A stretch of 64,000 nucleotides of DNA. It comes from Diplonema papillatum. Its lineage: Eukaryota; Euglenozoa; Diplonemea; Diplonemida; Diplonemidae. Location: positions 1 to 64,000 of the forward strand of contig JAPJBO010000250.1 of assembly GCA_030068145.1 (NCBI GenBank). Direction: 5' to 3'. Below, piece by piece: positions 41,182 through 44,273 of the stretch (its first letter is position 1; the number at the start of each line of letters is the position of its first letter). A program made the translations under genes and the position numbers. The notes under the pieces were generated by a model that saw nothing but the letters and a program-made list of their open reading frames with translations, was not told the origin of the DNA and made no database searches.

Positions 41182-42146
41182 GAATTGGCAGCTAGCTTCT
41201 GGCCTCATCGCACTCGGTCTCGGCTTAGGTCTTCGGTCATTGTACTCAGGGTGGGCTTGGCTACCTACGCCATCCGGAGTATTCATCATCGGAAAGGGGA
41301 GGAAAGAGAAGTCAGACAGAACCTTGATAACTTGCAACTAGCGAATGGGATAGAGTGTGCCTGTTGACCATGTCAATGGGCCAACCAGGCGAGATCACAA
41401 TGGGGGCAAGGGAGGGCGGGAAGAAGAAGAATTCAGTCTCAGAAGACCCACCTCAGCCCACCCGAAGTCTCCTGTTGTAGGCTCGGGTGGTGTGCTCATC
41501 CTGCCATGCGCTTTGCTCCAGTTCCTACCGTGTACTAAAGGAATTGGCAGCTAGCTTCTGGCCTCATCGCACTCGGTCTCGGCTTAGGTCTTCGGTCATT
41601 GTACTCAGGGTGGGCTTGGCTACCTACGCCATCCGGAGTATTCATCATCGGAAAGGGGAGGAAAGAGAAGTCAGACAGAACCTTGATAACTTGCAACTAG
41701 CGAATGGGATAGAGTGTGCCTGTTGACCATGTCAATGGGCCAACCAGGCGAGATCACAATCCATCCACCACTCCGCCAGTGAAAAACGTCCTCACCGCTT
41801 GTGTCACCGCCGCCACGGACTGAGGAGTGAAGGCCGTCAAGGGAACCCGGGATGGGAGATCAGCGGGATTTCCTGCACTCCTCACCCATCGAACCGATAT
41901 AACGCAGTTCAAGGACTGCACCCGCTTCAAACCTGCAACCACCGCGTTGTTCAACACGGAACTCCGCAGACACGCACCTTTCCGCGCGACTCCTTTGACG
42001 GTTGTGTTGTCGACGACAACGTCAACCCGAACCAGAATTCAGTCTCAGAAGACCCACCTCAGCCCACCCGAAGTCTCCTGTTGTAGGCTCGGGTGGTGTG
42101 CTCATCCTGCCATGCGCTTTGCTCCAGTTCCTACCGTGTACTAAAG
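41182..42146 (-). mobile_element. PAT/Ngaro-type element 2 (internally deleted)
   Basis: On the minus strand: A1 (42146-42034), internal remnant (42033-41760), B1 (41759-41541), A2 (41540-41401), B2 (41400-41182). B1 and B2 are identical 219-bp copies; A1 and A2 share the last 113 bp (A1 is shorter inside). This A1-internal-B1-A2-B2 arrangement is the split direct repeat of PAT/Ngaro tyrosine-recombinase retrotransposons. The element lies between (TAG)n tracts. The internal remnant encodes only the end of an RNase H domain, and no recombinase remains. Confidence 0.75.
41754..41957 (-). pseudogene. RNase H C-terminal remnant
   Basis: The frame reads LNNAVVAGLKRVQSLNC, then RWVRSAGNPADLPSRVPL, corresponding to the region around the last catalytic Asp (NPADxPSR) of the RNase H in element 1 (NPADVPSRVALA). 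Only about 65 residues remain. Confidence 0.7.
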
Positions 42147-42203
42147 TAGTAGTAGTAGTAGTAGTAGTAGTAGTAGTAGTAGTAGTAGTAGTAGTAGTAG
42201 TAG
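42147..42203. repeat. (TAG)19 microsatellite 2
   Basis: 57 bp between the two retroelements. Confidence 0.98.
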
Positions 42204-44273
42204 GAATTGTTGCTGGCTTCTTCTGGCATCATCGCACTCGTTCTGAGGCGGGGTCTGCAGCCGTTGTTCGGCTGGCGTTCCTCTGGCAGCGCTCTCTCTC
42301 TCTCAAATGACAGTGAGAATGTGGGGTAGGCCCTGCTTATTGATTCACGGTTGAACGAAGCTAGCGCACAAGGTTTGCCTGTTCTCGCACCTACTTTCCG
42401 CTTTCACACACAGATGCTCTACAAACTTCGGCCTGAGCTCCTTCCTGCGTTCGTCTGTTGGTGGGTTCTCCCACTTGACGGGTTCCGCCGTGGCCACTCC
42501 AGTTGAAAGAGAACGGTAAAAGGTCACCAGTCAGGATACTCACATAACAAACGAAGGGGAACACCGACCATGAGGCAAGCTATGATCGCCGCCGGGACGA
42601 CGTCACGCGGGGGATGGAGGGTGGGAAAAAGAAAGAGGAAGGTGAGACTGACATTCTTTGCTCCTGCTGGGTTTGGGCTTTTGTTGCTGCCAGAGTGACT
42701 AGTAGTAACCCCCGCCTCCTCCCAAACTCTTCTGGTGTTGGTTTGGGTAGGTGCTCCTCCTGCCATGCGCTTTGCTCCAATTCCCACGGTAAACCATAGG
42801 AATTGTTGCTGGCTTCTTCTGGCATCATCGCACTCGTTCTGAGGCGGGGTCTGCAGCCGTTGTTCGGCTGGCGTTCCTCTGGCAGCGCTCTCTCTCTCTC
42901 AAATGACAGTGAGAATGTGGGGTAGGCCCTGCTTATTGATTCACGGTTGAACGAAGCTAGCGCACAAGGTTTGCCTGTTCTCGCACCTACTTTCCGCTTT
43001 CACACACAGATGCTCTACAAACTTCGGCCTGAGCTCCTTCCTGCGTTCGTCTGTTGGTGGGTTCTCCCACTTGACGGGTTCCGCCGTGGCCACTCCAGTT
43101 GAAAGAGAACGGTAAAAGGTCACCAGTCAGGATACTCACATAACAAACGAAGGGGAACACCGACCATGAGGCAAGCTATGATCGCCGCCGGGACGACGTC
43201 ACGCCACCTGCCCCCTCGCGAGTAAAGAATGCCCTCACCGCAAGTAAAAGTCGCTGTCGATCCTCTTCCGAGGCGTCAGCGGCAAGGGCAACTCTTGAAG
43301 GGACATCGGCCGGGTTTTCCTTCGTGCTGATCCACGAGATGGACCAGGAACATTTCAAATCCCGTAGTCGGGTCAACGCGTGCACAACTGCGTCATTCAA
43401 TGACTTGTTCAACATGCAGTTTTTCTTTCGCGCCACCCCGACCACGGTCGTGTTGTCGACATGGACGTCGACCACGCTCCCTGATACTGACGGGGGTAGC
43501 GCATCCACCGCTCTCTTCAGAGCCAGTGCTTCGAGTGTGTTGATGTGGTGCCAAGCTTCCTGCTCGGTCCATGTACCACCCAACACAGTCAATTCTGCTG
43601 TCTGCCGGTCGACCAGGACAGCACCCCACCCCTGCAGTGACGCGTCTACGTAGACCGCGTACGGGCGATTCGTGGACGGGCGCGTGAACTTTCTGCTCAC
43701 ATCGACCGAATCGATCCACGATCGCAGATCTCTCCGTACGGAGGCCGGCACAGGCACAGTCTCTGATTGTGTGCGAGTTCCCTTGTTGAGGCTGTTCGTT
43801 ATCCGTCGCAAGAACTTGACGGCGAACCAGAACGAGCCGGGGAACGTATTCACGACTGCGCTCGCATGGAGCAGACGACCGCCGAGCGATTCTAAATCGC
43901 CGGCGGTGGGGCTAGACAGATCGACGGCCCGGATTTTTTCGATCAGGCGAGCCGCCGGAGAGACGGTCTTCCGACCGTGGTCAAAAGTGACCCCTATAAA
44001 ATCATAACCCGAGGAAGCGTCGTTACTATCCTCGGGCTTCCAAGAAGCATGTGCCCGTGCGGACGACGTCACGCCACCTGCCGGGGGATGGAGGGTGGGA
44101 AAAAGAAAGAGGAAGGTGAGACTGACATTCTTTGCTCCTGCTGGGTTTGGGCTTTTGTTGCTGCCAGAGTGACTAGTAGTAACCCCCGCCTCCTCCCAAA
44201 CTCTTCTGGTGTTGGTTTGGGTAGGTGCTCCTCCTGCCATGCGCTTTGCTCCAATTCCCACGGTAAACCATAG
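42204..44273 (-). mobile_element. PAT/Ngaro-type element 1 (internally deleted)
   Basis: On the minus strand: A1 (44273-44083, 191 bp), internal region (44082-43205), B1 (43204-42800, 405 bp), A2 (42799-42609, 191 bp), B2 (42608-42204, 405 bp). A and B copies are identical by eye. The B1/A2 junction reads CCATAGGAATTG: the two outer ends (CCATAG... and ...GAATTG) joined through a single TAG, exactly what a circular intermediate would contain. Outside, those ends meet (TAG)n. The internal region is bounded by direct repeats of GACGACGTCACGCCACCTGC (43192 and 44062). Confidence 0.85.
43176..44080 (-). pseudogene. RT thumb and RNase H of tyrosine-recombinase retroelement
   Basis: The protein starts inside the reverse transcriptase just after the catalytic YxDD (GYDFIGVTFDHGRKTVSP), followed by connection sequence and an RNase H domain with its catalytic set: YVDASLQGWGA (Asp), INTLEALAL (Glu), VDVHVDNTTVV (Asp) and NPADVPSR (Asp). 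Frame intact for about 270 codons. There is no upstream RT palm, gag or recombinase, so the element is non-autonomous. Homology with DIRS-superfamily RNase H is by motif order and by the split repeats around it. Confidence 0.8.

Follow-up and report, generated by a model that had tools for sequence, protein, structure and literature searches.

The closest described counterparts of the elements reported here are VIPER and TATE. Both begin at the 5′ end with an A1 block and close at the 3′ end with B1-A2-B2; they carry a gag-like frame and overlapping frames for a tyrosine recombinase (YR) and for reverse transcriptase/RNase H (RT/RH), and they make no target duplication (PMC6681497, PMC12278014). 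VIPER, found in Trypanosoma and Crithidia, has a short non-autonomous derivative, SIRE (PMC6681497), and by the wording of a 2013 abstract is known only from kinetoplastids (PMC3783388); TATE, a VIPER-like YR retroelement of Leishmania and others, is clustered at a fixed site in a tandem repeat—the GGG^TTA of telomere hexamers (PMC2696322, PMC6681497)—where one source states a TT duplication (PMC2696322). For diplonemids, the genome paper gives one sentence to TATE-like open reading frames, classed with DNA transposons (PMC10161547); beyond that sentence, among the matches listed from open-licence papers, we recognised neither diplonemid VIPER-like elements nor a YR retrotransposon targeting a non-telomeric microsatellite. 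Here we analyse two neighbouring elements, E1 and E2, in a 64,000-nucleotide stretch of DNA (the window; contig C250 of the 271 Mb, 2,910-contig genome that we searched) from Diplonema papillatum, a diplonemid (Euglenozoa). With a probability of roughly 0.8, we read them as copies, shortened by internal deletions, of retrotransposons from two VIPER-like (DIRS-order) lineages whose insertion into tandem repeats is one-way and YR-driven, E1 most likely relying on a YR supplied in trans.

Long tandem repeats such as TAGTAGTAG hold both elements at exact, direction-dependent positions. A repeat comparison of the window placed E2 at 41182-42146 and E1 at 42204-44273, with perfectly repeated blocks in the plus-strand order X-Y-X-internal-Y; on the minus strand, this is the A1-internal-B1-A2-B2 pattern of split direct repeats that an earlier note on this DNA had described, and its blocks were recovered exactly. 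Block copies are identical at 405/405 (X) and 188/188 (Y) positions in E1 and at 219/219 and 109/109 in E2. From left to right, with all element parts on the minus strand, a (TAG)n array of about 108 units (40856-41181) is followed by the E2 terminal block B2 (41182-41401; 219/219 identical to B1), 27 nt (41402-41428), A2 (41429-41540), B1 (41541-41760), a 274-bp internal remnant (41761-42034) and A1 (42035-42146). A (TAG)19 spacer (42147-42203; array extent 42145-42203) leads into E1, comprising B2 (42204-42608; 405/405 identical to B1), A2 (42609-42799), B1 (42800-43204), the internal remnant (43215-44069; 878 bp of the internal part are kept in all) and A1 (44083-44273), beyond which lies an array of about 214 TAG units (44274-44914; array extent 44271-44914). 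The outer ends of both elements therefore meet long (TAG)n arrays, as had been noted. The E2 remnant retains the C-terminal RT/RNase H, 98.75% identical to the fuller E2 protein (query-piece positions 482-561), the remainder being deleted. The E1 remnant, an open frame (285 aa scanned) that is 99.3% identical to a longer E1 copy in L041, holds the RT end and, as the earlier note had it, an RNase H, with YVDAS, INTLEAL, HVDNTT and NPAD in its translation and a Pfam RT_RNaseH match (PF17917, E=3.7e-7). Adjoining A1, 22 nt at the E1 deletion joint (44061-44082) are identical to 43191-43212 at the B1/internal boundary, which suggests template switching during reverse transcription.

Fuller relatives encoding gag-like, YR-like and RT-RNase H products, which the earlier note had proposed to look for, exist elsewhere in the genome. 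Block searches gave at least 80 matches for E1 and at least 99 for E2, counts that are lower bounds because 40 candidates were scored per search, and exact A-ends number 97 and 152, respectively. The entire 332-nt E2 junction query is matched at 100% identity by at least 42 sequences, that of the window among them, which points to recent movement. A complete E2 copy of 4,498 bp encodes a gag-like protein (3-1028, 342 aa), a YR (1032-2252, 407 aa) and RT/RH (920-3922, 1,001 aa), the YR frame overlapping the RT/RH frame in a different phase. A third family, E3, follows the same plan (gag 14-1111, YR 1115-2290, RT/RH 991-3963, then B1-A2-B2) and has one (TAG)n stretch in common with E1; the A1...B1-A2-B2 split direct repeats are present in all three families, and a gag CH-box, sought in E2 and E3, was not found. 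Around E1 copies we took 20 regions of up to 10 kb each. Five long copies were translated: the four of 4.2-4.3 kb have an open frame of 991 aa and that of 3.5 kb one of 852 aa, each ending in RT-RNase H. The L041 copy resembles E2 gag in its N-terminal portion, but solely the C-terminal part of that gag (39/120 positions), and eight YR queries found no match in it.

These gene maps revise the PAT/Ngaro assignment made in the earlier note. What stands is that E1, E2 and E3 are split-direct-repeat retroelements, a design common to Ngaro and PAT-like elements. Ngaro, however, has the order gag, RT-RH, YR (PMC8547959), with the YR downstream of RT/RH, whereas in E2 and E3 the YR precedes RT/RH; the order gag-YR-RT/RH rules out a place in Ngaro and makes one in PAT less likely, split repeats by themselves being no guide to the latter. 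Gene order and named trypanosome relatives make E2 and E3 VIPER-like, as does the YR-RT/RH overlap; E1 itself departs from this plan in the YR that was not found. Compared with VIPER, the host is a diplonemid instead of a kinetoplastid, the target is markedly (TAG)n or another tandem repeat, and the derivative without a recognised YR, E1, retains a long RT/RH frame. Compared with TATE, the target is TAG^TAG together with other repeats, and no TT duplication was seen; the sites seen for E1, E2 and E3 lie in (TAG)n, other repeats and non-repeat DNA, none of them a TATE-type GGG^TTA insertion. A YR is also linked to insertion into a short tandem repeat, (TAACC)n, in telomere-inserting endogenous nimaviruses of crustaceans, but these are large DNA viruses with unrelated cargo, and their YRs are reported not to be closely related to DIRS YRs (PMC10871703).

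In the putative E2 recombinase, R119, K148, H208, K211-R212, H239 and Y255, which we take to be the YR catalytic positions, are invariant in 13/13 aligned homologs, and one homolog, 99% identical, carries the species label Diplonema papillatum. The genome holds at least 141 YR matches at 59 to 100% identity, 139 of them free of internal stops (140 of 1,698 candidates scored). Searching with RT/RH returned 58 proteins, among which the sole named match outside Diplonema is a Trypanosoma theileri protein (32% identical, covering 92% of the query; 31% identical for RT-RNase H over 528 aligned columns), and a search from that protein led to T. melophagium, T. grayi, another T. theileri and one further relative. 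In an RT/RH tree of 64 rows (midpoint root, several long branches flagged, no Ngaro, PAT or DIRS references among the rows), E2 and E3 are sisters (100/99), whereas E1 falls in a separate clade; the Trypanosoma proteins, four in number, group together. A PDB sequence search with RT/RH found nothing, and a scan of viral_contigs with an RT/RH homolog gave two pattern matches, neither confirmed.

Insertion is oriented and precise. Read in the B2-to-A1 direction, 58/58 (TAG)n-flanked outer ends show TAG and none CTA (34 + 6 + 17 + 1 by source set, the ends of one copy not being independent). Where E1 lies in a tandem repeat other than (TAG)n and has both flanks, joining these gives an unbroken, in-phase repeat in 7/7 cases (six by TRF, C255 by eye), and therefore nothing was duplicated or lost; E1 also sits in repeats of 4 to 31 bp, and phase continuity is therefore a clean test. 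Target-site duplication is likewise absent from E3 in a TAG array, which on C42 reads TAG/GAATTG...CTAAAA/TAG. Nine TAG stretches hold two elements—in the window, L033, L034, L038, L043, L047, L048, L050 and L009, interrupted in L033 and L050—an arrangement that resembles the pairing of TATE elements in telomere repeats.

Targets are broader than TAG alone. The E1 left ends, 29 distinct ones in all (the motif found 12 in (TAG)n and 15 elsewhere and missed two, C678, whose first element base differs, and C255), fall into 14 in (TAG)n, 13 in other tandem repeats and 2 in neither, namely C984 and C2389, the latter with three TAGs. C812 was assigned to (TAG)n from its right flank, and C457:7694 and C2389 are copies whose B block runs directly into the internal part. 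The 13 other repeats comprise the 11-bp GGGGTCATATA (seven sites, C498 being assigned by eye with no TRF call), 31-bp repeats (three), and single cases of a 15-bp unit, a unit of about 22 bp (TRF: 44) and TAGG. G is the last base of the left flank in 29/29. Random points in the window fell in an array in 39/300 cases and random G^T points in 43/300, against which the E1 left ends give p about 5e-21; this background is that of a single window, and the E1 loci are the best-scoring matches among those listed, which favour recent copies. For E2, 26 right ends were read (7 from the window and the extracted loci, then 3, then 16): (TAG)n holds 19, a lone TAG 4, TAT or TAA 2 and CAA 1, so that 25/26 begin with TA. 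The microsatellite-targeted design proposed in the earlier note is thus borne out in its strong (TAG)n enrichment and is too narrow for E1. ORF1-deleted Ngaros of Cafeteria alter their integration preference (PMC8547959), a parallel to E1, with its truncated gag and wider targets than E2, that is suggestive only.

An end-motif search, which fixes the ends and would miss variants, found 35 inner A/B junctions (29 E1, 5 E2, 1 E3). The letters are CCATAG/GAATTG in E1 (window 42799/42800), CTAAAG/GAATTG in E2 (41540/41541) and CTAAAA/GAATTG in E3; a junction through one TAG, as the earlier note had it, is therefore true of E1 and not of E2 or E3. Its further proposal, that a TAG shared by element and target is the crossover sequence, fails on the same junctions: E3, without a junction TAG, nonetheless inserts at TAG^TAG, and a TAG within the element is therefore dispensable. 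Spanning the junctions is an imperfect inverted repeat, CCAATTC-N16-GAATTGG, in which 25/42 positions pair with the three families pooled, vs 5 to 15 at twelve other spacings; it could represent a recombinase core site.

The ends of E1 and E2, which had been taken to be unrelated, are in fact alike: in the last 100 nt of A they agree at 60/74 positions and at the start of B at 23/25, with 0/500 shuffles as good in each comparison. E2 and E3, by contrast, show no significant match at A (183/500 shuffles as good) or at B (255/500). E2 and E3 are RT sisters and yet their ends show no significant match, and the ends and the RT therefore tell different histories. That no YR was found in the E1 copy searched, together with ends that match those of E2 where E2 and E3 do not significantly match each other, means that E1 may use a trans-supplied YR; on a simple reading, a YR-less E1 retained or acquired ends that suit the E2 recombinase.

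Putting these observations together, we infer a cycle in which reverse transcription of the element RNA would draw on the ends as already joined in B1-A2 and give a circle with an A/B junction. An E2-type YR would then act at the inverted repeat around that junction, and the circle would insert directly after a G (for E2 mostly at G^TA(G)) in one orientation and with no target duplication, preferring tandem repeats and (TAG)n above all. E1, with RT-RNase H, a gag match confined to the C-terminal part and no YR found, would most likely integrate through a YR in trans, plausibly that of E2.

Several other accounts of the arrays and blocks deserve weighing. One is that the elements generated the (TAG)n arrays, by slippage or repeated integration from one TAG, and did not find them as pre-existing targets. 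Of 32 (TAG)8+ arrays, counted over the window plus 26 selected loci, 27 do abut a recognised element end, though these loci were selected for holding one, and TAG 36-mers are about tenfold commoner than the reversed control motif, (TAG)12 starting at 57,677 genome positions vs 5,679. Yet arrays without a recognised element end exist (window 14605-14637, 11 copies; L032 4792-5160, 123 copies), several border a dispersed host repeat of about 230 bp that is also free of insertion at window 14690-14910, and several hold two elements, some from different families; moreover, E1 keeps phase with repeats of 4, 11, 15 and 31 bp and with that of about 22 bp (TRF: 44), none of which it can have made. We consider such an origin improbable. 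Hardly more credible, and still unlikely, is near-random insertion at G^T, with tandem repeats sheltering copies and selection acting against the others. It would accommodate 16 additional E1 A-ends, picked by contig order from those not used before (C84:77475 passed over), for which the link to (TAG)n is looser: 6 are in (TAG)n, 1 is an inner-like junction and 9 lie elsewhere, one of these resembling the 11-bp repeat; tandem repeats, besides, make up about 13-17% of the window by two measures. However, (TAG)n occupies about 0.07-0.09% of the genome—arithmetic that varies with the assumed number of arrays—and still, in the sets examined, takes about half of the left ends of E1 and most right ends of E2, and selection on location does not explain a single orientation within arrays. 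The earlier note had named a majority of copies outside TAG repeats as what would refute its idea; the counts point both ways, with 19/26 E2 right ends in (TAG)n and, for E1, 14/29 left ends and 6/16 of the additional A-ends. As for simple tandem duplication or assembly collapse as the source of the A/B pattern, only the generic risk in repeats speaks for it. This block order is seen again on many contigs, in part in copies with complete coding capacity, and end motifs on either side identified the 35 inner junctions. Genome-wide recurrence and coding relatives make local duplication, which the earlier note had listed among the findings that would refute its idea, very unlikely, and we give this account next to no weight.

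Less settled is how E1 moves. That it is not mobilised by E2 in trans, either because a YR-bearing member of the E1 lineage exists or existed or because the shared ends reflect common descent only, comes a little below an even chance in our estimate. The RT clade of E1 includes P0020 and P0022 from another source, several YR families are encoded in the genome, and E1 uses non-TAG repeats far more than E2 does, which could mean a different recombinase. E1 and E3 also have short stretches in common, 16/18 at the A-end (0/500 shuffles as good) and 17/21 at the B-start (10/500), and the significant A-end stretch means that the ends of E1 are not tied to E2 alone. Set against this are the eight fruitless YR queries in L041 and the likeness of E1 and E2 ends over 74 nt, where E2 and E3, despite RT sisterhood, have no significant match. 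The short E1/E3 stretches and the heavier use of non-TAG repeats by E1 also weigh against our preferred reading as a whole, as do the less repeat-bound second A-end set and the limits of background and locus choice given above, and further observations join them. Pfam Phage_integrase recognised 1/13 YR homologs, at E=0.0011 and below the curated cut-off, which is weak support; the other twelve gave no match, nor did the E2 YR itself, and PDB sequence and profile searches with the YR found nothing. The Trypanosoma matches are not annotated as VIPER or TATE, the T. theileri protein being labelled uncharacterized. The RT motif is usually written YxDD. Among 65 aligned sequences (E1, E2, E3 and homologs P0014-P0075), 59 have [WF][VI]DN and 0 have DD, although E2 copies appear to have moved recently; the conserved Asn is an unusual feature of an RT that is probably active. 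Finally, a YR-like stretch lies inside a broken E1 copy on C984 (L031 2900-3412), opposite the E1 coding strand. It is probably a nested insert, and the E1 copy around it occupies one of the two sites outside repeats.

A diplonemid VIPER-like system with tandem-repeat targeting is real and apparently recently active. VIPER and TATE were described from kinetoplastids; here, a VIPER-like group is abundant in a diplonemid, with three families whose integration sites are exact. TATE goes to telomeres and the elements here to microsatellites, which hints at a possibly old origin of repeat targeting among these retrotransposons; E1 and E2 offer a natural test of a retrotransposon living on the recombinase of another lineage. 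A wider scenario, which we hold tentatively and at somewhat less than even odds, is that diplonemids harbour a large, recently active VIPER-like radiation whose YR reads microsatellite DNA one way (G^TAG), and that the deeply divergent, YR-less E1 took on matching ends and rides on that YR, with looser targets after losing most of gag.

Some smaller observations complete the picture. A lone E2 A block lies at window 20060-20167 (95% identical), its right flank, TAGGCG, being a non-array G^TAG site. In the L047 E2 copy (oriented 5760-7043), the A-B unit is repeated as B-A-B-A-B-A-B ahead of the internal part, as if units had been added by junction recombination or unequal exchange. A suspected E1/E2 chimera on C84 was dropped, since by its coordinates the E1 A-end is separated from the E2 B-start by about 22 nt, as would be the case for two neighbouring elements. 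A second E3 right end (L033/L007, C469:101362) is adjacent to the TAG repeats in which E1 is inserted on that contig. The dispersed repeat of about 230 bp (window 14605-14910 and 44913-45145) is 90.6% identical between those two copies and 94-97% between that at 44913 and those in L041 or L046, and is perhaps the end of another element.

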